Virus record (IMG/VR): IMGVR_UViG_3300021960_000641
Coordinates: 1-21,027 of that record
Strand: one strand, 5' to 3'
Origin: a virus
DNA length: 21,027 nt
Shown in pieces: positions 2,379 through 12,907 of the stretch. Made by a program: the position numbers and the translations under genes. The notes beneath the pieces were generated by a model. That model ran no database searches. It had not been told where the DNA came from and saw only the letters and a program-made list of their open reading frames with translations. Positions within the stretch are counted from its first letter, which is position 1. Every line of letters starts with the position of its first letter.

Positions 2379-2542
2379 TAGGATATAAACCAGTTGTATG
2401 TATCTTGTTCTTCTTTCAAATCTTTTTGAAATGAAAAATTTAGTTCGTTTTTAATAGTATCGACTGATTGTAATATTTGTCTTTGATTTTCAACATCATA
2501 TTCTTGTTTTGGTTCAGGTATGTATGCAGTTATTTTAGCCAT
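2378..2542 (-). CDS. Small conserved protein after the nozzle gene
   Basis: A 54-residue protein starting MAKITAYIPEPKQEYD. I chose the ATG at 2540-2542 because it overlaps the TAA stop of the gp10-like gene by one base (TAATG), the usual termination-reinitiation arrangement. An in-frame ATG at 2593 would add 17 residues that only mirror the coding end of that gene in another frame. The sequence is charged and mostly helical after residue 14 (ENQRQILQSVDTIKNELN), ending in aromatic DTYNWFIS. Very similar short proteins follow nozzle genes in other marine phages as I remember them, which suggests a tail-assembly role. No catalytic motif is visible. Confidence 0.72.
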   Translation of the reverse strand: MAKITAYIPEPKQEYDVENQRQILQSVDTIKNELNFSFQKDLKEEQDTYNWFIS

Positions 2543-4464
2543 TATCTTCTTCCATCTGGTCTCACATCTACTCTCAAAGTTCCATAACGCCAAGTTTCAC
2601 CTATAGCATCATTTTCTATTTTAATTGCAAGAAGTCTTCCTCTTGCTCTAGTGTCTACCTTATCAGTAGAAGATGTTATTGTAAAGGGTCCAAGAGGTGA
2701 ACTAGTCGCAGTCCCACTTGGGTAATCATTTAATAATAAAGTCACTTTTGAATTACCGGTTAATATTTTAAAATCAGGTATAAATCGTCTCATAGACATA
2801 ATAAATTCTCCATCACCTCTTAAATCTGCCATATTATTACTATTAGTAATGTCAAAATCTCCAGATTGAATATAAGCGTTTATAGAAGTAGTACCAGTGC
2901 TATTGACTTGATCAGTTCCTTTTTCATGTTCGTAATAAGTTGATGCACCATACTTATTAGTAATACCTTGTATTGGAAAATTTGGTAAAGCTGTTTTGTT
3001 GTATTGTGTAGCGTAAGGTAAATCAAAAACACTTTGATCTAAATAAGAAGTTCTTGCTAAAGAAGATGTTGTCCAACAAGTTTCTGCATAGTTATAAGTA
3101 ACACATCTATTTATTTGTTCAGAACCTGAAGCAGGATAAAACCAATTAATTTCATTATATAAAGTATTGTGTTCACAATATACTAATTGACTAGAGTTAT
3201 AATTTAAACCTAGATTATCTCCAGTTGTAGTAAATACAAAATCTTCTACTAAACATGGTATGGCTTTTACCGTACCATCATACATAAAGAATCCACCTTC
3301 ACCAGACATCCAAAACACAATACCATTAGAATAACTTAATGCGTTTTGACCTATTAATCCACAGTTAGTACCTACTTGTCTAACTGAAAAAGTAAATGGT
3401 GGACCCACATATTGAATAACATATGCTGAAGTATCTGTTAGTACTAATGTATAATCTTTTCCTGATACTGCTCCAACAATTTCATTACCCTTATCAAGTC
3501 TAAAAGTTCCTGCAGTATTCGTTGCTGTTGGTTGATAAGTATTATAATCTTCTTGATTTGAAAATCTTATAAACATTGGATCTTGAGTTGTATTATCTCC
3601 AATTGTTGTTTCAGTTCCAAAATGAAATAAATGTCTATCTCTATCGGACACTTGAGTTAAAAGTGTTTTAGTAGGAGCACCAGACATAAGAGTTGCTCTG
3701 TTAGCTCTAGGAGATGCAGCTCCTGCATTCCAAGTAAATGTTTCACCATTGTGAATAGTTGCAATTAATATTTGACCAAAATTATCTAGACTCCAGATGC
3801 CTGGATCCAGAGTTACATTGCTAGTTGAACTTTCCGTACCCCAAGTACTTGAGCCCCAGGTATCTGTACCCCAACCAAAACCTACGGTTTGAAAAGTTGG
3901 ACCTACCACTACATATGGATCAATTTGTGCTGAACCTGTTGCTGAAGTAGTGCCTGCTGAAGTAGAAGGCATAACAATCTCAAATGTATTTGCAGTTTTA
4001 TTTAATACTTCAAAAGTATTATTTTCAAAATCTGATGTTGCATAACCAGAACCTGTTGGCACAGTGACAGAAGAAAAAGTTATATATCTTCCATCTAATA
4101 AACCATGAGATGTTTTATTAACTGTAATGGTTGCAGAACCTGTTGTTGCATCAAAGGTTGCTCCAGTAATAACATCATTATCTATGGGTGTAATGTCATA
4201 AAATTCACCCGCATAATATAAAAACAAACCTTGAGATGTACCGATCGCTACATATTTTTCACCAGCAATAGATGTAAAATCATGCTGTGCACGTGCTACA
4301 CCTGGTAAGGTATTATTAGAATTAGTTAATTGAGACCAACCTCCTATTTTTTCAGGAAGTCCGTATCTAAATCTAACAAAATCACCATCTACCCATTGAG
4401 ACTCAGCTCCGGAATCAGTGACCATTTTGTTAAAACCAGCCTTGAAATTTAATTTTTGTAGCAT
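2542..4464 (-). CDS. P22 gp10-like tail stabilisation (nozzle) protein
   Basis: A 640-residue structural protein of the packaged-DNA stabilisation type. In P22-like podoviruses this protein forms the nozzle under the portal and adaptor ring and keeps the packaged genome in place. The N-terminus (LNFKAGFNKMVTDSGAESQW, then VRFRYGLPEKIGGW at 30-43) is characteristic of this family in marine phages. Beta-propeller-like blades follow (for example YVAIGTSQGLFLYY, 71-84, and WMSGEGGFFMYDGTV in the middle). Residues about 99-182 hold an inserted beta-domain (GSATITVNKTSHGLLDGRYITF) that also appears in the 165-residue protein at 18277-18774. The start has no clear Shine-Dalgarno sequence. The gene lies apart from the adaptor genes: fibres and the oxygenase array separate them. 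Family assignment is confident. Confidence 0.88.
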   Translation of the reverse strand: MLQKLNFKAGFNKMVTDSGAESQWVDGDFVRFRYGLPEKIGGWSQLTNSNNTLPGVARAQHDFTSIAGEKYVAIGTSQGLFLYYAGEFYDITPIDNDVITGATFDATTGSATITVNKTSHGLLDGRYITFSSVTVPTGSGYATSDFENNTFEVLNKTANTFEIVMPSTSAGTTSATGSAQIDPYVVVGPTFQTVGFGWGTDTWGSSTWGTESSTSNVTLDPGIWSLDNFGQILIATIHNGETFTWNAGAASPRANRATLMSGAPTKTLLTQVSDRDRHLFHFGTETTIGDNTTQDPMFIRFSNQEDYNTYQPTATNTAGTFRLDKGNEIVGAVSGKDYTLVLTDTSAYVIQYVGPPFTFSVRQVGTNCGLIGQNALSYSNGIVFWMSGEGGFFMYDGTVKAIPCLVEDFVFTTTGDNLGLNYNSSQLVYCEHNTLYNEINWFYPASGSEQINRCVTYNYAETCWTTSSLARTSYLDQSVFDLPYATQYNKTALPNFPIQGITNKYGASTYYEHEKGTDQVNSTGTTSINAYIQSGDFDITNSNNMADLRGDGEFIMSMRRFIPDFKILTGNSKVTLLLNDYPSGTATSSPLGPFTITSSTDKVDTRARGRLLAIKIENDAIGETWRYGTLRVDVRPDGRR

Positions 4465-4502
4465 ATTTTTATTCTACTTTAGTAGGGTATTTAATTCAAG
4501 GA

Positions 4503-5039
4503 TTATATAAATGTTGCTACAAGAACCAATCTGACACCTAATTTAGGGAATTCTTGATAATGTGGTAAATTACCAAAGCAAATACCTTTACCTAATTTAG
4601 GAGTAATTTGTTTAACTATTTTTTTATTATCACAAATAATGGTTTTTGCAGGAGATTCATTTAAATAAATAATAATTTGTTTGTGATCATATCCATGATC
4701 TTGATGAGGTTCACAATTGTCAAAGCCACAATTGAAAGTCATGTTGTATGCTATTCTAGTAAAAAAATAAGGTTTCTCTTTAATACTATCACAAAAATTT
4801 TTAAGTATATCTATTGTTTCGTTATATGTTTCTATATCTGTATTAATTGATTTTTTATGGTCTTCGGAATGTTCTAACCTTTGTAAAACTATATGAGACA
4901 TAAAATAATCTCTTTGGTTTTTACTAACTGAATTTGATTGAAAAAAGAATGGGAAATTATCATTTAATAATTTATTTTCTAGAAACATTTTGTTTCTATC
5001 TGTTAAGAAATTTTTGTTTTCTTTAAAAAATATTTTCAT
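4503..5039 (-). CDS. 2OG-Fe(II) oxygenase, array member 1 (HxD)
   Basis: A 178-residue protein with the C-terminal jelly-roll core of 2-oxoglutarate/Fe(II)-dependent oxygenases. These enzymes couple 2OG decarboxylation to hydroxylation or related oxidation of a substrate. The iron ligands are visible as H112-Q-D114 (EPHQDHGYDHKQIIIYLNES) and H160 (GNLPHYQEFP), with R170 ten residues later as the 2OG carboxylate anchor (GVRLVLVATF). The N-terminal 90 residues are helical and lysine-rich, probably the substrate-specific part. It abuts the upstream gene with no overlap. It is the last gene of the array in transcription order, 38 bases before the nozzle gene. Substrate unknown; protein side chains, surface glycans or lipids, and small molecules are all open. 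Confidence 0.85.
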   Translation of the reverse strand: MKIFFKENKNFLTDRNKMFLENKLLNDNFPFFFQSNSVSKNQRDYFMSHIVLQRLEHSEDHKKSINTDIETYNETIDILKNFCDSIKEKPYFFTRIAYNMTFNCGFDNCEPHQDHGYDHKQIIIYLNESPAKTIICDNKKIVKQITPKLGKGICFGNLPHYQEFPKLGVRLVLVATFI

Positions 5040-5618
5040 TTAATAATTAAAAGAATAAGATATTCTTTCTTCGTTTTTATTTAAATTAGGCATAACGGTA
5101 TGCAATAAATAACTAGGGAATAAATATAATAAACCTTCAACTGCTGGTAACCACCAAGTTTGAGATGTATAATGATTATTCTTTCCTCCTAATTCTGCTT
5201 GCTGTACTTCACGAAATGAAGGAGAATAAAAAGTAATATCTCCACAATCTTTTGGAGTCTTAACATAATACACACCTGAAATCTTTGCACCTGGATGACT
5301 ATGTATCTCGTTATAGTCTTTGTAATAATTAATATTACACCATATATTATCTAAAGAAGTATTACTATAACCTAATTCTTTAGCATACTTATTAACATGG
5401 GTGTTAATATTTTTAATAAGTGTTTTTAGTATTTTTGAATCAACATTATATTTTCCATGAGTGGTTAAATCTTTTGAATGAAAACCACCTTTATTAGAGT
5501 TTGTAACAGCTTCGCCTTTACTATACTTTTGTAAATCATGTGAATATTTTATTAATTGATTATTATCAATTTTTAATTCTACCCGATATATACCTATTTT
5601 AAATATATCATAAATCAT
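5040..5618 (-). CDS. 2OG-Fe(II) oxygenase, HxHP-type (array member 2)
   Basis: A 192-residue protein of the putative 2OG-Fe(II) oxygenase family with an HxHP signature (the TIGR02466 / PF13759 type). Key stretches are NIWCNINYYKDYNEIHSHPG (residues 91-110) carrying H106 and H108, SGVYYVKTPKDCGDITFYSP (114-133), and LFPSYLLHTVMPN (166-178) with H173, then R185 in ERISYSFNY. The proximal motif is HSH, not HxD, so the iron site may be three-histidine or use another acid; this is usual for the family. The length is near the family's usual size of about 200 residues. It is a clear paralogue of the 190-residue enzyme at 7686-8258. One untranslated base separates it from the preceding gene. Substrate unknown. 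Confidence 0.88.
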   Translation of the reverse strand: MIYDIFKIGIYRVELKIDNNQLIKYSHDLQKYSKGEAVTNSNKGGFHSKDLTTHGKYNVDSKILKTLIKNINTHVNKYAKELGYSNTSLDNIWCNINYYKDYNEIHSHPGAKISGVYYVKTPKDCGDITFYSPSFREVQQAELGGKNNHYTSQTWWLPAVEGLLYLFPSYLLHTVMPNLNKNEERISYSFNY

Positions 5619-5619
5619 T

Positions 5620-6102
5620 TTACTTCAGGTAATTAAAATTAATAACTATTCTATATTTGTAATCAGTACAGGTAGTACCTCTATGTTCAGTATCTGAATC
5701 AAATTCAACAAATCTATTACCTTTACTTTTAACTTTTTTCTTTGGTTTTTTAAACTCGGTATATCCATTACAGGTATTTATATAAAATATTCCTGTAGTG
5801 CATTGTTCTTGAAAATCGGTATGCCAAAGGTGGGTAATTATTTTAGAAGTTCTTGTTTGTAAGTTAGCTTTAATTCTTAATAGTTTTTTTGGTTTAATCT
5901 TACAAAGAATAGGAGCTAATAAACTAAAAAACGGAGAATTAATTTTTCCATTATGGAACAGATGGCAAAATTGAAATTTATCTTTTTCATCTTCATCAAC
6001 AACACCATTTAATAAAAACCAAGCAAAAGTATCTTTATTAGAAACAGTATTAGCTATTGATTCAAAATCAAATTTATCTAAAAAATTATCATAAACTATC
6101 AT
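5620..6102 (-). CDS. 2OG-Fe(II) oxygenase, array member 3 (HxD)
   Basis: At 160 residues this is the shortest clear oxygenase in the array, so little more than the jelly-roll core is present. The ligands are H94-T-D96 (HLWHTDFQEQ) and H140 (DTEHRGTTC), with R151 as the 2OG anchor in the closing strand (YRIVINFNYL). The spacing of 44 residues between the triad halves and 11 to the arginine fits the superfamily. Between them lies a basic loop, KKPKKKVKSKGNR (118-130), which might contact an acidic polymer such as nucleic acid or an anionic glycan; that is inference. The start overlaps the stop of the 172-residue gene by four bases (ATGA), so translation is coupled. Substrate unknown. Confidence 0.82.
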   Translation of the reverse strand: MIVYDNFLDKFDFESIANTVSNKDTFAWFLLNGVVDEDEKDKFQFCHLFHNGKINSPFFSLLAPILCKIKPKKLLRIKANLQTRTSKIITHLWHTDFQEQCTTGIFYINTCNGYTEFKKPKKKVKSKGNRFVEFDSDTEHRGTTCTDYKYRIVINFNYLK

Positions 6103-6617
6103 AAATAATTAAACCATCCAGTAATGATGTATTTTGTTTCTTTAGAAGGAGCGCCTCTATGTTTATGAGTAAAATCAGCTGGCCATATGATAGTAGATCC
6201 TTGTGCAGGTTTAGTTTTAAAATTTTGAAATTTCCATTCTGTTTCTCCCCCAGTTTTTACATCATTTAGATAAGTCATAAAAACTAGTAGTCTTCTTAGA
6301 TAAACATCGCCTTCTCCTCTTTCACAATGCCAATTACCATAAACTTGACCAGGATTATATTTTTGTATTTTAATGTTGTCGCCTATTTGCCAGTATCCAT
6401 CAACATCATCTAAATCAAATTTTGTTTTATAATCTTTAATACATTTATCTAACTCAAATAAGTACTCCATCATTAAAGGCTCATTTAAAGTCCTAAATAT
6501 TTGAAACATATCTACCTGTTTCTTTTTCAAGTGTTCTACATCTTTACTGTTTTCGAAATGTTCAATAATTCTTTTACATAAAGAAGTATCTATTTTGTAT
6601 GTTTGTATAAAGTTCAT
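6099..6617 (-). CDS. 2OG-Fe(II) oxygenase, prolyl-hydroxylase-like (HxE)
   Basis: A 172-residue enzyme resembling the prolyl 4-hydroxylase-like branch of 2OG oxygenases common in cyanophages. The core reads YNPGQVYGNWHCERGEGD (residues 87-104), LLVFMTYLNDVKTGGETEW (110-128), KPAQGSTIIWPADFTHKHRG (136-155) and KYIITGWF. The proximal motif is H97-C-E99, so glutamate replaces the usual aspartate; this HxE form is known in some superfamily members. The distal ligand is H153 (or H151), and K162 takes the place of the 2OG-binding arginine, as in animal prolyl hydroxylases. It has the strongest ribosome binding site in the array, AGGAGG five bases before the ATG, inside the end of the upstream gene, with a four-base overlap. 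Prolyl hydroxylation of a protein is the most natural guess. Confidence 0.88.
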   Translation of the reverse strand: MNFIQTYKIDTSLCKRIIEHFENSKDVEHLKKKQVDMFQIFRTLNEPLMMEYLFELDKCIKDYKTKFDLDDVDGYWQIGDNIKIQKYNPGQVYGNWHCERGEGDVYLRRLLVFMTYLNDVKTGGETEWKFQNFKTKPAQGSTIIWPADFTHKHRGAPSKETKYIITGWFNYL

Positions 6618-7138
6618 TTTATCCTCCTAAACATTATATTTAAACTAAATCTTGCATTTTCATTTACTGGAGGTCCTCCCTTATGTGTAAGACCACTTGA
6701 GAATACTTTAGCTTCTCCAGCTACATCTTGATAAAATTTATCTTCAATATAGATACCTCCACCATTGTTATGTATAGAGTATAATATTGAAAACATATTT
6801 TGATCTTCAGTTTCATCATCTTTATGCCAAGCAGTTTCTGAATTTTTAAAATACATATTCCAAAATATTCTAAATATAGAAGCTTCTTTTATATTTAACT
6901 CATTTACAACTCTATCAAAAACAATTTCAGCATATAAATTTAAAGGGGTATCTAATTTTACACCCTCTTTTTCATTATAGGTAGTATTACTAAAACCTCT
7001 ATTTTTTTCTCTAAAAGCTTCTTTAATTCTGCCTTGAGGTAATTCATCAGTAGCAATAAAGTAAGGAATTTGACCAAGATAATTTAAAATTTTTTGATTT
7101 GTTCCTGAACTAAATATGTTTTTAACTTTTTTAATCAT
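6614..7138 (-). CDS. 2OG-Fe(II) oxygenase, array member 5 (HxD)
   Basis: A 174-residue oxygenase. The iron ligands are H105-K-D107 (TAWHKDDETED) and H152 (SSGLTHKGGPPV), and R163 (NARFSLNIMF) anchors 2OG; spacings of 45 and 11 residues are normal. The strand pair MFSILYSIHNNGGGIYIEDK (115-134) and GEAKVFSS (141-148) fit the jelly roll. Asp107 and Asp108 are followed by an acidic run. The N-terminal 90 residues differ from every other array member, so this is a separate subfamily, not a recent duplicate. It overlaps its neighbours by four bases on each side. A weak AGAG lies upstream of the ATG. Substrate unknown. Confidence 0.85.
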   Translation of the reverse strand: MIKKVKNIFSSGTNQKILNYLGQIPYFIATDELPQGRIKEAFREKNRGFSNTTYNEKEGVKLDTPLNLYAEIVFDRVVNELNIKEASIFRIFWNMYFKNSETAWHKDDETEDQNMFSILYSIHNNGGGIYIEDKFYQDVAGEAKVFSSGLTHKGGPPVNENARFSLNIMFRRIK

Positions 7139-7689
7139 TTTACTCTATGTTGAAAAGGTGAGTTTGCTTTGGCTTCGCTATTAAAAACTAATACAGATTT
7201 TCTTTTTTTAGAAGGATTTGGTGGTGATCTATGCCATACATAAGCAGGCATTGCTAATATATCACCTTCTTTAACTTTCATTTTAGTAACTTTATTTTTA
7301 ATCGGATCATAAATTTCAGTTTCGCTTTCTTTAGGAAGTTCTACATATAATATATTAGACATATGAGTTTCAGGATGAATGTGCCATTCATGATATTTCT
7401 TATTTTGATATTGTTGAAACCATACATTATCAATTTTAAACTCTCCGTATGATAACTCTTCAGTTATTTGCTTATAAACAGGTACTGTAATTTCTAAAAA
7501 GTAATCCATGTAATTTCTTTTAACCTCTCCTGGAACCCTCCAATCTGTTTTGGATATGTCTTGAGAATCTATATCTAAAGGATATCCTTCTGCTTTGTCA
7601 AAAAAATCTAATAAAATAGATTTATGTTTCCTAAAATTAGGAATAGTTCCAATAGCATAATACATTGTAACAGGGTTTATCTTAATCAT
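7135..7689 (-). CDS. 2OG-Fe(II) oxygenase, divergent HxHP type
   Basis: A 184-residue enzyme with the core YHEWHIHPETHMSNILYVEL (residues 99-118), GDILAMPAYVWHRSPPNPS (142-160) and a closing strand KSVLVFN. The metal site would be H103-I-H105 and H153, with R163 or a neighbouring lysine for 2OG. The proximal HIHP aligns with the HSHP and HTHP motifs of the two TIGR02466-like members of the array, but the rest is clearly divergent. The phrase AMPAYVWHRSPPN resembles cupin and oxygenase distal strands in general. N-terminal residues 1-60 are unlike any neighbour. The gene overlaps both neighbours by four bases and has no visible ribosome binding site, so it depends on coupling. Substrate unknown. 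Confidence 0.8.
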   Translation of the reverse strand: MIKINPVTMYYAIGTIPNFRKHKSILLDFFDKAEGYPLDIDSQDISKTDWRVPGEVKRNYMDYFLEITVPVYKQITEELSYGEFKIDNVWFQQYQNKKYHEWHIHPETHMSNILYVELPKESETEIYDPIKNKVTKMKVKEGDILAMPAYVWHRSPPNPSKKRKSVLVFNSEAKANSPFQHRVK

Positions 7690-8258
7690 TTTAAATTAAA
7701 TGCTATTGTAATTCTTTCTTCATTGTTAAAATTAGGAGTAACATAATGTTGTGCCCAAGGTGGAAATAAAAACAAATAATTTTCTTTAACTTCAAATACA
7801 AATTCTTCTGAATTGTAACAGTTAGTTACATCCCTAACCTCATGAGGTATATAAGACTCAATACTTTGAAGACTTCTAAAATTTATATTTCCACAATCTC
7901 TAGGTGTTTTTACATAAAAAACTCCAGAAACATAACTCCAAGGGTGAGTATGCATTTTATTAAAATCTTTAAAATAATTTATATTACCCCACATATTAGA
8001 TATTTTAACTTTATTTTTTATTCCTAAAATTTTAGATGCGTACGCATTTCCATGATTTTCAATATCTTGAACTAAAGGTTTAAACTCTTTAATTTTTTTA
8101 AAAGCAATATTTGGTGTTTGATAACCTCCGATATTACTTTTAGTTTCTGATGGATATTTACTTTCAATATCTTTTATTACAGCTCTTATTTTATTTAAAT
8201 CTTGATCAAGTAAAATTTTATTTATTGGAGTTGTAAATATATCATGTATTTCATTCAT
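7686..8258 (-). CDS. 2OG-Fe(II) oxygenase, HxHP-type (array member 7)
   Basis: A 190-residue member of the HxHP-type putative oxygenases (TIGR02466 / PF13759-like). The signature reads ISNMWGNINYFKDFNKMHTH (residues 86-105), SGVFYVKTPRDCGNINF (111-127), LFLFPPWAQHYVTPN (162-176) and ERITIAFN. Ligand candidates are H103, H105 and H171, with R182 for 2OG. It shares the GGY/GGF turn near residue 45, the N-W-NINY block and the TPxDCG block with the 192-residue protein at 5040-5618, so the two are paralogues although four other oxygenase genes lie between them. It overlaps the 114-residue gene before it by four bases and lacks its own ribosome binding site. Substrate unknown. Confidence 0.88.
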   Translation of the reverse strand: MNEIHDIFTTPINKILLDQDLNKIRAVIKDIESKYPSETKSNIGGYQTPNIAFKKIKEFKPLVQDIENHGNAYASKILGIKNKVKISNMWGNINYFKDFNKMHTHPWSYVSGVFYVKTPRDCGNINFRSLQSIESYIPHEVRDVTNCYNSEEFVFEVKENYLFLFPPWAQHYVTPNFNNEERITIAFNLK

Positions 8259-8599
8259 AGGTTTACGTACCAGTTAAAGTTTAATTTTTTATGTATTTCC
8301 TTTATATCAATCGTTTCTAATTTATTATTATATAAATATTCTAATAATTCTTCTGCATCAATTATAATCCATTGGTTTTCTGCTTCAAAAGCAAATTTAT
8401 CTGCTTGAGTTTTAAATGAAAAAACTCTTATTAAACCTTCTTCATATCGTACCATTGACCTTACATCAAATTTTAATAATTGATTAGTCCTTGATTTAAA
8501 TATACCTTGAACATTCCAAAACTCTTCTTCCTTTTGTTTTTCAGATGCATAGGTCATATGATCTAAATGTTTACTAAACCTACCTATTAAATTTATCAC
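8255..8599 (-). CDS. Unknown protein inside the oxygenase array
   Basis: A 114-residue protein that I do not recognise and that has no HxD or distal histidine motif, so it is not an oxygenase. It looks like a mixed alpha/beta protein: a charged helix (ASEKQKEEEFWNVQGIF, residues 18-34), two strands (LLKFDVRSMVRYEEGLIRVF, 41-60), a helix with aromatic residues (ADKFAFEAENQWIIIDAEEL) and a lysine-rich C-terminus. The start is a GTG at 8597-8599, chosen because AGGAG lies six bases upstream; the later ATG (residue 15) has no such site. It overlaps the upstream oxygenase by 20 bases and the next one by four. Placement suggests a partner or regulatory subunit for the enzymes, which is inference only. 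Confidence 0.7.
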   Translation of the reverse strand: MINLIGRFSKHLDHMTYASEKQKEEEFWNVQGIFKSRTNQLLKFDVRSMVRYEEGLIRVFSFKTQADKFAFEAENQWIIIDAEELLEYLYNNKLETIDIKEIHKKLNFNWYVNL

Positions 8600-9200
8600 G
8601 TGGTACTCCTACATGAGGTCTCCCATCATAAATATTTTTTAAAGATCCCTTAGTTTTTGTATTAGTATAATGTAAAAATACTTGTGCGCAGTGCGCTCCA
8701 CTAAATGGATCTCTCCAATGTTCTAATATATTACCTCTATAAATTAACATATCTCCAACATCTAAATCTATTTTTTTTCCTGGTTTATTTTTCTTACCAG
8801 AAGGCTCTAAAAATATAGGCCACTTATCTCCTCCTAAAAATAAGGTAGTTGATATTTCACAACTAAATCTATCTTTATGTCGTTCTAATTCATCACCTGT
8901 TTTATAAAATCTTGCATAACTATAATTAGGGTATAAACTTAATCCAGTTGTTTCTTGCATTAAATCTTGTAATTTTAAAAGTAATGTATCAAAAGCGATA
9001 TCTCCATAAATTGAAAATGTATTATTTATTTGCTCATCATTGTAAGTACCAAACATAGTTTCATCTTTATTAATCATTCCTGATTGGAAATATGTATCGG
9101 TTACTATTCTTCTTATTGTAAAATAATTATATAAAAAAGCAGCTAATTCTTTTGTTATTGCTTTTTTAACAACAGTATAATTTTCTTTTTCAAAACTCAT
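8580..9200 (-). CDS. 2OG-Fe(II) oxygenase, array member 9 (HxD)
   Basis: A 206-residue oxygenase. The core is YARFYKTGDELERHKDRFSC (residues 95-114) with H108-K-D110, STTLFLGGDKWPIFLEP (117-133), VGDMLIYRGNILEHWRDPFS (148-167) with distal H161, and AQVFLHY (172-178) as the last strand. R163 or Q173 could help hold 2OG; the usual arginine about ten residues after the distal histidine is not obvious. The GDMLIYRG and EHWR phrases are typical of a phage oxygenase group I remember from cyanophage genomes. The C-terminal 30 residues (GSLKNIYDGRPHVGVPRDKF) are an extra basic tail. It overlaps its upstream neighbour by four bases and the GTG-started gene downstream by 20. Substrate unknown. Confidence 0.87.
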   Translation of the reverse strand: MSFEKENYTVVKKAITKELAAFLYNYFTIRRIVTDTYFQSGMINKDETMFGTYNDEQINNTFSIYGDIAFDTLLLKLQDLMQETTGLSLYPNYSYARFYKTGDELERHKDRFSCEISTTLFLGGDKWPIFLEPSGKKNKPGKKIDLDVGDMLIYRGNILEHWRDPFSGAHCAQVFLHYTNTKTKGSLKNIYDGRPHVGVPRDKFNR

Positions 9201-9832
9201 TCAAACGGCTTTCCTAAATTCCACATCACTAAAGAAGTTCTTTTTCCTTTTGTCACAGGTGTTACTCTATGCCATATAAAAGAAGGAAATACAATAATAG
9301 ATCCTTTAGGTAGTATTTCTTTACATTTAATTAATTTCTTTTTTAATTTTGGATTTTGAGGTTGGTAAAATTCTAACTCTCCACCACTATATTCTTTAGG
9401 GTCAGTTAGATTACAGGTTACAGATAATTTTCTTACCTTTCCTGCTAAAGTACCTCTATTTGGTTCATAAGCATAAGGCCAACTATCTTGATGCCAATCA
9501 TAATGTTGTCCTTTTCTATAAATTGTATATTGAGCAGGTTCAGTCCAATGCCACTCAAAATTCCAACCTGCTTTTTCATTAGCTTCTTGAACATAAGGAT
9601 GTACGGCATCATACAACCATTGTTGGTCTATCCATGCTACATTAGAATCTCTTAGTTTTTCAAAATGGGTTGTATCTTTAGTGGTCGGTTTTTTACCCGA
9701 TTTAATCATTGCTTCTTCGCTACCTATAGAACCTTTTTGTTCGTTAAAGGCTCTTGCTATATCTCTTACACGATTAATAAAATCGTCTTTTAAAACACCT
9801 GTAAAATAATAATAGATATAATTTAAATTCAT
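9197..9832 (-). CDS. PKHD-type 2OG-Fe(II) hydroxylase
   Basis: A 211-residue enzyme that matches the PKHD-type hydroxylase layout (relatives of bacterial YbiX/PiuC and many phage proteins). Residues 102-119 read YTIYRKGQHYDWHQDSWP with H114-Q-D116. RKLSVTCNLTDPKEYSGGEL (134-153) is the typical central strand pair. KGSIIVFPSFIWHRVTPVTK (176-195) contains distal H188, and R198 in GKRTSLVMW anchors 2OG. Length and spacing match the family well. This is the most orthodox member of the array. It shares one base with the preceding 175-residue gene and overlaps the following one by four. The family is usually thought to hydroxylate protein side chains, but the substrate here is unknown. Confidence 0.92.
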   Translation of the reverse strand: MNLNYIYYYFTGVLKDDFINRVRDIARAFNEQKGSIGSEEAMIKSGKKPTTKDTTHFEKLRDSNVAWIDQQWLYDAVHPYVQEANEKAGWNFEWHWTEPAQYTIYRKGQHYDWHQDSWPYAYEPNRGTLAGKVRKLSVTCNLTDPKEYSGGELEFYQPQNPKLKKKLIKCKEILPKGSIIVFPSFIWHRVTPVTKGKRTSLVMWNLGKPFE

Positions 9833-10359
9833 TAAAACTTTTTATAATGAACTACTAGATAAATTAAGTCCTTATCTCCTCTATTTTTATGTATAAAAAA
9901 ATCTAAACTACTGTTGAAAACAATAAAATGATGTTTTTGTAATGGATGATGCCACAAAAGTCCTTTATCAATATTATCATCATATTCTAAGGTTGCTATT
10001 CCCTCTCCTTGTAACACTAAAACACTAGTGTATTGAGGAGATCTATGAGTATGGTTAGGATTAACATGATTTCTTTTGTAAGAATTTTCTCCTGGTTTTA
10101 AAATTTGTCCATACCAATCTTCAGCTGTTAAAGTAAACATATTAAATGCTTTATATTTATCTCTAATATAATCATGGTACCAAAGAATATTTTGATCTAA
10201 TGGAATTCTAATATCGTTAAATAAATTAGTTAAATCTTTTAACTTTGTAATATCACTATTTTCTATAATTAGATTTTTTATTTTATCTAAATCAATCGTT
10301 TGATAACTATTGATCTCTCCCCAACATATTTCTTGTTGTGTTAAAATGTGTTTCTTCAT
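9832..10359 (-). CDS. Cupin or oxygenase-like jelly-roll protein, divergent
   Basis: A 175-residue protein, first gene of the array in transcription order. It lacks an HxD motif, but its C-terminal half has a cupin-like order: NHVNPNHTHRSPQYTSVLVL (residues 97-116) with H103 and H105, GEGIATLEYDD (118-128), an LLWHHPLQKHHFIVFNS region (134-150), and FFIHKNRGDKDLIYLVVHY (154-172) with H157 and R160. The HTH motif before a strand and a histidine near the last strand resemble the HxHP members of the array, so it may be a tenth, strongly diverged enzyme or a metal-binding cupin. The ATG has no clear ribosome binding site. A 53-base A/T-rich gap separates it from the fibre-block gene upstream. Confidence 0.68.
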   Translation of the reverse strand: MKKHILTQQEICWGEINSYQTIDLDKIKNLIIENSDITKLKDLTNLFNDIRIPLDQNILWYHDYIRDKYKAFNMFTLTAEDWYGQILKPGENSYKRNHVNPNHTHRSPQYTSVLVLQGEGIATLEYDDNIDKGLLWHHPLQKHHFIVFNSSLDFFIHKNRGDKDLIYLVVHYKKF

Positions 10360-10412
10360 AATTTCTATATACTTTTTATAGTAGTATATATTTTTTTAAA
10401 AAAAAGTCTAGT

Positions 10413-10874
10413 CTATGTAATAGGATTCCAAGTAGAATTATTAGGGTTCCAGTAATCTACAAAATTTCCAGTAGCTATATTAGTTCTAACCCATCTAATA
10501 TTAGTTTCATCCCAAACTATTCCTTTTTCAGGGTCGTCACTTGTAGGCTCTGCTACAGGTGGTATCCATTTTGCGTTAACTACATCTTTTACCCATGATG
10601 GATGAATTCTAGGTGGGAAAAACATATCATTAATTTCATCATATGTTCCACCAATAGTTGCCATGTTTCCTCTAAATGGAGTTCCACCTAAAGCGTGTTG
10701 ATTATTAAGCGTATTAAAAGAATATTGTTTCCATTTAGAATAACCTGTAATTGCTGCTTGATGAGCAATACCTGTTGCTTCGTCTTCAACTCCATCTTTT
10801 AAACAATCTTGGTCATTAACATGTTCAACATTAATAACTACATTATTTTCATCTAGTTTTGCAAAGTGTGCCAT
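10413..10874 (-). CDS. Conserved phage protein at end of fibre block
   Basis: A 153-residue protein that starts MAHFAKLDENNVVINVEHV. I recall this start, and the later FFPPRIHPSWV (85-95) and W-rich end (KWIPPVAEP, IVWDETNIRWV), as typical of a protein repeatedly encoded next to tail fibres in cyanophages and pelagiphages. It is aromatic and proline-rich with predicted short strands, no membrane segment, and one cysteine (C24). A tail-tip, fibre-attachment or fibre-chaperone role fits the position, but no function is established to my knowledge. It begins two bases after the stop of the polyglycine protein, and is followed by the only notable gap before the oxygenase array, 10360-10412, which holds T8A7 on the coding strand and no GC-rich hairpin. 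Confidence 0.75.
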   Translation of the reverse strand: MAHFAKLDENNVVINVEHVNDQDCLKDGVEDEATGIAHQAAITGYSKWKQYSFNTLNNQHALGGTPFRGNMATIGGTYDEINDMFFPPRIHPSWVKDVVNAKWIPPVAEPTSDDPEKGIVWDETNIRWVRTNIATGNFVDYWNPNNSTWNPIT

Positions 10875-10876
10875 AA

Positions 10877-11923
10877 TTACGCTTTCTGGTATCTAATTAC
10901 AACGATACCTGATCCTCCTGCTTGTCCGTTTCCTGATCCCCAGTTAGAGCCACCAGCTCCACCGCCTCCACCACCAGTATTAGTAGCACCAGCGTTAAGA
11001 CCTTGTAAAAAACCATTTCCACCACCGCCTTGTCCACCTGTTCCTCCAGGTGCTGGTGGGTTAGTTCGTGGTTCTCCACCACCTCCACCGCCACCGCAGT
11101 AGTATCCTCCTTGACCTGAAGATGAACCTGTTGCAAATGCTGGAGCTGGTCCTCCTACTCCACCATCTTGAATTGTTGTCGATGAGCCTTGGTCAGGAGC
11201 AGCAGATCCACCGCCACCTCCACCAGAACAGGTATAAGAAGTTCCTAATCTTACTCCACCATCATCACCGCCTGGGAAACCTTGTCCTGGAATTCCAGTT
11301 CCTCCTCTACCTAAGAAGCCTCCGCCACCACCGCCAGATCCTCCTGGGATTCCATCTCTAGGGACAGGGCCTTCACATCCACCACCGCCACCACCTGATG
11401 ACGTATAACCCATAGCAGAAGATGATCCACCTGCTCCACCTTTTTGTCGGTCTGAAGTTCCACTTCCACCACCGCCAATTGAAATTGGATAACCAGTTAC
11501 TGAAACTGGAATAGCGTTAATTTGTCTATAACCACCAGCTCCACCTCCGCCAGCTCCGTCATATGCGCCACGGCCACCGCCGCCGCCTCCACCAGCAGCT
11601 ACAACAATGTCAACATTGTTTTGAGCAGGTGTTCCTAATTGTGTTACTGTAAATGTGCCTGGGCCTGTAAATTTATGATATTTGTATCCACCAGTGACAG
11701 GATATTCAGTTCCACCAGTAGCAGTAATATATGCTATGTTTTGTGTACCTCTAAAATTTCCCATATTGATTTGTCCAGAAGATGGAACCGATCCAAAAGG
11801 ACCTGAAGTTCCTGGAGGAACATTAGCTCCACCAGCATAATATTCAGAAATAGATATTGGAGGAGAACCTCCAAATTCAGTTTGTAAACTTGACAATCCA
11901 ACGTTTGTATTAGGGACCGACAT
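10877..11923 (-). CDS. Polyglycine-rich adhesin-like tail protein
   Basis: A 348-residue protein in two parts. Residues 1-60 (SVPNTNVGLSSLQTEFGG, then ISISEYYAGG and SGQINMGNFRG) form a short module common at the start of phage tail proteins. Residues 65-348 are a glycine-rich domain: a small beta unit (YHKFTGPGTFTVTQLGT, VDIVVAA at 104-110) followed by at least six runs of 4-8 glycines, ending in GGSGIVVIRYQ. This matches the phage glycine-rich tail domain type, and the polyglycine runs recall the gp38 adhesin of T-even phages, where glycine-rich helices carry receptor-binding loops. The loops between runs vary and include C183, C232 and C276 and collagen-like GIPGQGFPGG (210-219). AAGGAG lies upstream inside the preceding gene. 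Receptor recognition is likely; whether it is oxygenase-modified is speculation. Confidence 0.82.
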   Translation of the reverse strand: MSVPNTNVGLSSLQTEFGGSPPISISEYYAGGANVPPGTSGPFGSVPSSGQINMGNFRGTQNIAYITATGGTEYPVTGGYKYHKFTGPGTFTVTQLGTPAQNNVDIVVAAGGGGGGGRGAYDGAGGGGAGGYRQINAIPVSVTGYPISIGGGGSGTSDRQKGGAGGSSSAMGYTSSGGGGGGCEGPVPRDGIPGGSGGGGGGFLGRGGTGIPGQGFPGGDDGGVRLGTSYTCSGGGGGGSAAPDQGSSTTIQDGGVGGPAPAFATGSSSGQGGYYCGGGGGGGEPRTNPPAPGGTGGQGGGGNGFLQGLNAGATNTGGGGGGAGGSNWGSGNGQAGGSGIVVIRYQKA

Positions 11924-12907
11924 TTATTTTTTCTCCTTAATTAAATTTTCTACTTTATCAGATAATACTTTAACTGCTTCAATTAGTAAACATGTAAGTC
12001 TATCATATTTTACAGCTTTAATACCATCTTTTCTTTGAGCAACAGCTTCAGGTAAAACTTTTTCTACTTCTTGAGCAATTACTCCGACATCTTTTTTTCT
12101 AACAAAATAGCCATCTTCACCACCTTGTTTTTTAATCCATTCATCTTTCCAATTAAATAATACCCCATTTAATTTTTTCAATGCTTCTAGTGGATCAGGA
12201 ATATTTGTAATATCTTCTTTTAACATAGCATCTGAAGAATAAAAAGCTGTTATATCATCAGTAGCACGTATTTGTCCAGTGGTTCCTGAAGGAGCAGTTC
12301 CTACGCCTATTGAATCTGCTTGTACATCATTGTCTGCCGTTAATGTTCCAGTAATTTCTATATTTCCTGTAGTATTTATATCACCTGTAGTATTTATATC
12401 ACCTGTGATAATAATATTCCCTGTTCCTGTAATATCGTTTGAATTAAGATCTAAATCACCACTTAACTGCGGAGAAATATCTGAAGAAACTTCTGTAAAA
12501 GCTGCATCTACAACATTTGTTCCATCAGAATAAATCATCTTTTTACCTTTATCAGTTGTAGCCCAGGTGACCCCTGTTCCAGAACTTGTTTTAAAAGTAA
12601 CTGTAAATGCACCGATAGTTGCATTTTCAACTATATAGGCTTTTTCAATTCCATCTGGAATAACTACATTTACATTTGATGTAATAACTCCTGTTAATTT
12701 TATAATTTGATTTTTACCATTAGATAAAGCTCCATTTGAAAATACTAAAGTAGCACCAGTCGTTGCATTTAATCCAACCCCTGCATATCCACCTATAGCT
12801 TGTTCAAGGATCAATAAATTTGTGTTTGTAATCTGTCCCCAAGTTCCTGAATTTTCACCAGTTGCCTGAACCGTTAATTTTAAACTTGCTGATGTAGTAT
12901 TTGCCAT
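11924..12907 (-). CDS. Tail fibre with S74 intramolecular chaperone
   Basis: A 327-residue fibre. The N-terminus (LKLTVQATGENSGTWGQITN, residues 9-28) is the attachment-like module seen in many marine phage fibres. The middle has short repeats such as ITGDINTTGDINTTGNIEIT, expected to form a thin trimeric beta shaft. The C-terminal 103 residues are a peptidase S74 domain, which helps trimerisation and then cuts itself off: S225 and K230 in SDAMLK form the catalytic pair, and KLNGVLFNW and DVGVIAQEVEKVLPE are family signatures. Cleavage is therefore expected just before S225, leaving about 224 residues in the virion. It ends in a lysine-rich helix. AAGGAA lies eight bases before the ATG. The chaperone is a relative of the one in the 950-residue fibre. 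Confidence 0.88.
   Translation of the reverse strand: MANTTSASLKLTVQATGENSGTWGQITNTNLLILEQAIGGYAGVGLNATTGATLVFSNGALSNGKNQIIKLTGVITSNVNVVIPDGIEKAYIVENATIGAFTVTFKTSSGTGVTWATTDKGKKMIYSDGTNVVDAAFTEVSSDISPQLSGDLDLNSNDITGTGNIIITGDINTTGDINTTGNIEITGTLTADNDVQADSIGVGTAPSGTTGQIRATDDITAFYSSDAMLKEDITNIPDPLEALKKLNGVLFNWKDEWIKKQGGEDGYFVRKKDVGVIAQEVEKVLPEAVAQRKDGIKAVKYDRLTCLLIEAVKVLSDKVENLIKEKK

Follow-up and report, generated by a model that had tools for sequence, protein, structure and literature searches.

The viral record IMGVR_UViG_3300021960_000641 (21,027 bases, an incomplete genome analysed over its whole stretch and referred to here as the window) carries eleven successive open reading frames on the minus strand (4503-10359), most of which encode members of the 2-oxoglutarate (2OG)/Fe(II) oxygenase superfamily. 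These genes (g1 to g11), together with a gene for a glycine-rich protein upstream of them (gGly) and the small gene in between (g10413), share one history that is separate from that of the flanking virion genes, and the pattern of sequence identity suggests that the whole block (4503-11923) is exchanged between phages as a mobile unit. The initial annotation had drawn the unit at 4503-10359; the array is real, but the unit is larger, also including the probable glycine-rich adhesin and the small upstream gene (10413-11923). Few extra genes are as common in marine phages as those for 2OG oxygenases, which usually go under the name of auxiliary metabolic genes. The tie to one adhesin module makes their substrates addressable by mass spectrometry on existing isolates.

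The evidence for a shared history comes from comparison of the window with homologous loci, which share descent, so that significance tests on the following correlations are indicative only. The upstream members of the module are gGly (10877-11923, minus strand; 348 aa, 34% glycine; PF21722 Gly_rich_2, E 4e-14; phrog_2295), a probable tail-tip adhesin, and g10413 (10413-10874, minus strand; 153 aa; phrog_7759, a label without a function), a probable fibre chaperone judging from its position. Pairwise identities of g10413, g1, g2, g10, and g3 correlate at 0.82-0.90 (42-57 loci), and those of gGly correlate with the array genes at 0.55-0.62 versus 0.15 with p3287, the virion stabilization-type gene at the other end of the array. 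The backbone genes p3287, gS74a, and g17175 are intercorrelated (0.61-0.71), whereas the correlation of the array with p3287 or gS74a is about zero, despite both being near neighbours. In gene order, g10413 follows gGly in 81 of 96 cases, and g1 comes next after g10413 in 60 of those 81.

Exchange of the block is indicated by a contig from another metagenome (L087; contigs and loci compared with the window are designated by L and a number), in which the products of these genes are 94-100% identical to those of the window. In 250-nt blocks, the two sequences are 94-100% identical from the start of gGly to the end of g11 and about 66% identical in p3287, and synonymous divergence is 0-0.12 within the module versus 1.1 outside it. 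The downstream edge of the exchangeable module lies at 4465-4502 (minus strand), where identity to this contig drops from 97-100% to about 66%. At the corresponding junction of L087 (7790-7862), a 69-nt remnant of the 3' end of another g9 gene directly follows g11, as would be expected if an incoming module had replaced a resident module ending in g9. A search with an exact 30-nt pattern over the g11-p3287 junction of the window returned no match, leaving this junction without independent coverage. The g2 copy of L087 (2460-3095) has a premature stop ahead of the distal histidine, which represents either a sequencing error or a broken copy.

The link between fibre type and oxygenases was also apparent among 52 loci fetched by p3287 alone, a sample that is blind to the array. 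At least three co-directional oxygenases are present in 22 of the 25 loci with gGly/g10413-type fibres, while antisense oxygenases are found in 17 of the 18 collar-type loci, and 6 of the 9 loci with the remaining fibre types have no oxygenases. In phages whose glycine-rich fibre is replaced by one with a tail-collar domain (L042, L052, L054, L055, L081, and others), the oxygenases lie on the other strand, and another fibre type, comprising proteins of about 476 and 347 aa (e.g., L009, L015), is found without oxygenases.

The eleven array genes are a translationally coupled set forming one operon, as originally proposed, and are transcribed from g1 (9832-10359) to g11 (4503-5039). Their junctions comprise six 4-base overlaps, one 1-base overlap, one 20-base overlap, one abutting pair, and one 1-base gap. 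On one side, the array is flanked by genes for tail fibres (a pair containing an S74 chaperone domain and then the glycine-rich protein), of which gS74a (11924-12907, minus strand; PF13884) lies on the backbone side of the upstream edge. On the other side is p3287 (2542-4464, minus strand; phrog_3287, 5e-80), which belongs to the backbone and lies outside the module. The array has a G+C content of 25-29%, which is lower than that of gGly (about 46%) and of the structural genes on its right (33-40%). A scan of the window for promoters and terminators yielded 41 promoters versus 43 expected, which is no excess, and nothing decisive. Farther downstream (38-1823) are a glycosyltransferase gene and an adjacent gene that matches Anp1 weakly; since this pair occurs with and without arrays, its inclusion in the module is rejected. 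The pair is kept in HTVC023P-type phages whether or not an array is present.

Membership of the array products in the 2OG superfamily, also proposed in the initial annotation, was borne out by hidden Markov model searches, profile-profile links, and, for g3, an AlphaFold2 model. Five products (g2, g5, g6, g8, and g10) exceed the Pfam gathering score for 2OG-FeII_Oxy_3/_5, and nine (g2, g3, and g5-g11) fall into PHROG families whose labels read 2OG oxygenase, 'ferrochelatase', or 'DNA endonuclease (V)', g7 through a weak match only (phrog_2297). Profile-profile comparison interlinks g2 and g5-g11 (links up to 99.9%) and ties g1 to g5 (94%, 149 columns) and to g10, while unrelated phage families used as a control score about 1% or less; the same comparison gave no link of g3 to the other array families. 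From these profiles, a double-stranded beta-helix fold is predicted for g2 and g5-g11. The individual genes, all on the minus strand, are of different types. The g2 product (9197-9832) is a putative oxygenase with an HxD motif (2OG-FeII_Oxy_3, 4e-16; phrog_61). Three genes encode PF13759-type proteins with an HxH motif, all in phrog_81: g5 (7686-8258; Pfam 7e-21), g6 (7135-7689; 6e-11), and g10 (5040-5618; 4e-23). The g8 product (6099-6617) is prolyl-4-hydroxylase (P4H)-like, with HxE...H...K (Pfam 7e-11; P4H in the PDB, 6e-13), while HxD...H...R is found in g7 (6614-7138), which has weak Pfam and PHROG matches and invariant ligands and aligns with g9 at 97%, in g9 (5620-6102; phrog_274, 3e-48), which aligns with both g7 and g11, and in g11 (phrog_274, 5e-24), which aligns with g9 at 99%. 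Several array members are nearest to protein hydroxylases (prolyl 4-hydroxylase, PHD2, and LH3).

The initial count of nine or ten oxygenases can be refined according to the metal ligands. Nine products have a metal motif (HxD in g2, g3, g7, g9, and g11; HxE in g8; HxH in g5, g6, and g10) with a distal histidine in each. A loose search for the motif is satisfied by almost all relatives of the nine, for example by 124 of 125 relatives of g2, 138/138 of g3, 98/98 of g10, and 49/54 of g9. The Hx(D/E)...H iron triad is conserved in g2, g3, g7, g8, g9, and g11, and the motif of g5, g6, and g10 is HxH...H, as in PF13759 relatives. The 2OG-binding arginine or lysine after the distal histidine is invariant or nearly so in the alignments of g7, g8, g9, and g11, and a basic residue is present in the window copies of g2, g5, g6, and g10; g3 lacks one at the canonical place. 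Judging from these residues, the nine enzymes (g2, g3, and g5-g11) are potentially catalytic. The tenth, g1, has the fold, as indicated by its AlphaFold2 model (predicted local distance difference test, pLDDT, 89.5; Foldseek to 2OG oxygenases, E 4e-6), but its ligands are mostly lost in relatives: the window copy reads HTH...H, only 14 of 72 relatives satisfy the loose motif search, and the alignment shows the ligands gone in most. It is therefore a probable pseudo-enzyme or non-catalytic partner. The remaining gene, g4 (8255-8599, minus strand; 114 aa), often follows g3 and is conserved in alignments of its relatives; it has no Pfam or PHROG match, and none of the tests applied identifies it as an oxygenase.

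The g3 product (8580-9200, minus strand; phrog_2954), whose family is usually labelled ferrochelatase, was modelled along with g1, the two proteins for which AlphaFold2 models were made, and both folds were as initially predicted. The g3 model (pLDDT 92.5) has as its top PDB matches the Pseudomonas putida P4H (E 1e-8) and human PHD2, in keeping with a prolyl-hydroxylase-like 2OG fold, and H108xD110 and H161 are invariant across 33 aligned sequences. There is no sequence match to Pfam ferrochelatase, and a ferrochelatase identity is ruled out by the fold, as the best 50 structural matches are of 2OG-oxygenase type with no ferrochelatase among them. Homologues occur in 154 GenBank phage records, many labelled ferrochelatase. 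Further homologues with the HxD...HWR...QVFLHY signature occur in records filed as cellular bacteria (Lysobacter, Mucilaginibacter, Mycobacterium, and Pseudonocardia; L208, L214, L219, L228, L242, L245, L249, L252), some inside open frames of 750-800 aa. A comparable mislabelling appears to affect phrog_274 ('DNA endonuclease V'): g9 and g11 have no Pfam endonuclease match, and profile comparison ties them to 2OG families as well as to one another, pointing to a misnamed 2OG-type oxygenase. The family phrog_1644 ('minor coat protein'; L130, 4987-5517) is perhaps another such case. Such labels ('ferrochelatase', 'endonuclease V') and the entry 'hypothetical' on individual members are part of the reason why long oxygenase runs have been overlooked.

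The array recurs in independent contigs with the same gene order (L086, L087, L088, L089), which rules out a chimeric assembly. Protein identity to the window is 66-84% in L088 and L089 and 37-68% in L090/L091, and the shared genes keep their order throughout L087-L091. The ratio of nonsynonymous to synonymous substitution (dN/dS) against L088/L089 is 0.11-0.23 for g1-g9 including g4, compared with 0.15 for the neighbouring virion gene, demonstrating that these genes are under purifying selection; for g10 and g11, comparison was possible only with the near-identical L087. The order kept in independent contigs and these ratios speak against a chance arrangement. The window array is not the largest known, as eleven-gene arrays occur in two other contigs (L090 and L117), and the longest oxygenase run among 80 loci fetched by the flanking virion gene alone is 7. 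All 66 arrays of at least four genes beginning with g1 contain g2 (at position 2-3) and g3, although the g3 count is biased, since part of these loci were fetched via g3. The arrays thus keep a g1-g2-...-g3 frame, with inserts that vary between lineages. Tryptophan halogenase genes close to oxygenase runs (L199, 2402-4006; L198, 4553-6109; L106, 4296-5690) might contribute a further type of modification. In a phylogenetic tree, g5 and g6 cluster with same-position orthologues of other phages, and g10 has its nearest kin in HTVC008M. Simple tandem amplification is ruled out by this tree, since even in the one array pair that shows detectable similarity along its full length (g5 and g10, 39% identity), g10 is nearer to the HTVC008M gene than to g5; the original view that different subfamilies were assembled without simple amplification therefore holds, and its suggestion of selection for many substrates or steps is hypothetical.

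The window belongs to an HTVC023P-type pelagiphage by its homologous virion genes and gene order, with p3287 being 66% identical to its counterpart in Pelagibacter phage HTVC027P and 50% to that in HTVC023P, among the same neighbours. Cultured relatives of this type infect SAR11; one of them, HTVC023P, has copies of gGly together with a g1-g2-g10-g3 array. In addition, a contig of the SAR11 single-cell genome AG-422-I02 (L200; QCMS01000007.1) contains a glycine-rich gene with oxygenases and g3 behind it, and represents a phage caught with its likely host. A SAR11 host for the window is consistent with both the cultured relatives and this contig.

The proposal that the array oxygenases modify the glycine-rich adhesin after translation is given an even chance of being correct. 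It is the simplest reading of the co-inheritance, the exchange footprint, and the tie between fibre type and array, and it is also favoured by the recurrence of this link in other phage families (Mosig and S-CREM1) and by the closeness of several members to protein hydroxylases. The gGly tip protein, newly made and still unfolded or held by its chaperone (g10413), would be hydroxylated on differing side chains by the nine 2OG/Fe(II)-type enzymes, with g1, which retains the fold but has mostly lost its iron ligands, serving as a scaffold or partner. Once decorated, the loops of the tip would bind the host receptor, and loop hydroxylation would alter that binding. We infer here the adhesin as substrate, hydroxylation as the reaction, and what g1, g4, and g10413 contribute. 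Modifiers and substrate would be inherited and exchanged together because both must match. Across 61 loci, the arginine, cysteine, and phenylalanine contents of gGly rise and its valine content falls with the number of oxygenases, an exploratory trend that holds after dereplication and may reflect shared ancestry.

Several points weigh against this proposal. Neither a substrate nor a modified residue has so far been seen, and co-inheritance is evidence of functional coupling or joint selection, not of chemistry; the array might act in the same niche and leave the adhesin untouched. The proline fraction of gGly shows no correlation with the number of oxygenases, and a proline-hydroxylated, collagen-like adhesin is unsupported for this reason. 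Three of the nine enzymes (g5, g6, and g10) have HxH instead of HxD/E, and use of 2OG is putative for that family. Collar-type loci show no clear co-inheritance of collar and oxygenases, and in P-SSM2 and other T4-like cyanophages, related oxygenases are scattered far from the fibres.

An alternative that is unlikely but deserves attention is that the oxygenases modify host proteins (of translation, the ribosome, or the envelope, translation factors included) in the course of infection and adjoin the fibres as co-selected and co-exchanged host-specific traits. The top structural match of g3, the P. putida P4H, was solved in complex with EF-Tu, which it modifies, and genes for host range and for host targeting would likewise travel together; however, a late operon in which ten host-directed enzymes follow a tail-tip gene is a less economical arrangement, the orientation and content of the oxygenases track the fibre type, and the same neighbourhood is seen in phages of both SAR11 and Synechococcus. 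It is improbable, too, that the array makes up a biosynthetic pathway leading to a small molecule, a modified amino acid, or a surface glycan, with the oxygenases performing tailoring steps. While tryptophan halogenase genes do lie near the oxygenase runs of S-CREM1, Sf-FP1, and HTVC008M, and the conserved framing genes g1, g2, and g3 with variable inserts would suit a pathway, the window array has no scaffold-making enzyme, and the downstream glycosyltransferases follow the backbone.

The variation in content and order between lineages, and the status of the region as a recombination site, could also be explained by neutral accumulation, with a hotspot behind the fibre gene gathering oxygenases common in the phage pool that have no single shared function. 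The low dN/dS and conserved frame, the accumulation of almost solely this superfamily, and an order held down to 37-68% identity make this account quite improbable. Oxidation of phage DNA bases (DNA hypermodification) is considered very improbable. TET/JBP-type 2OG enzymes do oxidise bases, and g3 has a sub-threshold profile match to Tet-like dioxygenases (E 0.1), but the fold search with g3 is dominated by P4H and PHD2, and the array travels with a fibre gene. Furthermore, this phage type keeps its DNA hypermodification genes elsewhere, near the DNA polymerase (PMC9599517).

Modification of the adhesin may be extended to a swappable chemical code, in which combinatorial sets of oxygenases, anchored by the pseudo-oxygenase g1, write site-specific side-chain modifications on the adhesin, and the adhesin and its matching writers move as a unit between backbones, perhaps even between podoviruses and myoviruses; this extension is possible but rather doubtful. 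If true, these proposals would describe a protein-modification route to varied host recognition in phages and a new use for marine phage oxygenases. The g3 result would also mean that 'ferrochelatase' no longer counts as a phage metabolic gene; ecological studies have used this label for an auxiliary metabolic gene (PMC11561400, PMC9599517).

The initial annotation regarded the arrangement as unfamiliar, a view overturned by several precedents. HTVC023P-type phages, the same phage type as the window and with the same gene families, have eight non-orthologous 2OG genes near each other, and a 'ferrochelatase' is always beside one (Wittmers 2022, PMC9599517). In that account the 2OG genes are 'not adjacent' and unconserved in order, and the 'ferrochelatase' is a partner enzyme, whereas here the genes form contiguous runs (up to 11) with a g1-g2-...-g3 frame and the 'ferrochelatase' is itself predicted to be a member of the 2OG fold. 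The Gly-rich/oxygenase neighbourhood recurs in the pelagimyophage Mosig and the cyanophage S-CREM1. The cultured Synechococcus phage S-CREM1 (OP535465) resembles the window in having nine adjacent oxygenases (ORF72-80; eight annotated as 2OG, plus a JmjC protein) downstream of Gly_rich_2, but it is a T4-like cyanophage with a different order, a JmjC member, and a tryptophan halogenase nearby; the accessible portion of its description gives ten 2OG genes, with no comment on the run seen there (PMC9964418). The Pelagibacter phages Mosig and HTVC008M have six and five adjacent 2OG genes, respectively, beside tail-fibre genes as in the window (in Mosig, g2-g3-g9-m-g10-g5 types behind two glycine-rich fibre genes), but are myoviruses with shorter runs and no match to g1 or g10413 beside them. 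Synechococcus phage S-SCSM1, with 24 2OG genes in its genome (PMC9602691), shares with the window a large and diverse 2OG set, but spread over the genome; its longest annotated 2OG run is four, beside tail-fibre genes (within the 26 kb examined). With respect to the adhesin, available portions of the accounts of S16/PP01 (gp38) and Pam3 describe glycine-rich tips that present variable loops to the receptor, as well as a Pam3 fibre that needs a phage-encoded chaperone (gp24-gp25), and those portions mention no oxygenases (PMC12892980, PMC9608196). The gGly protein is similar to the Pam3 fibre, as described there, in its glycine content, long glycine runs, and adjacent small gene, which may be compared with the chaperone; it has no sequence match to solved structures. 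The window array is thus a large and well-ordered variant of a known arrangement, and what is new is the module and a testable substrate.

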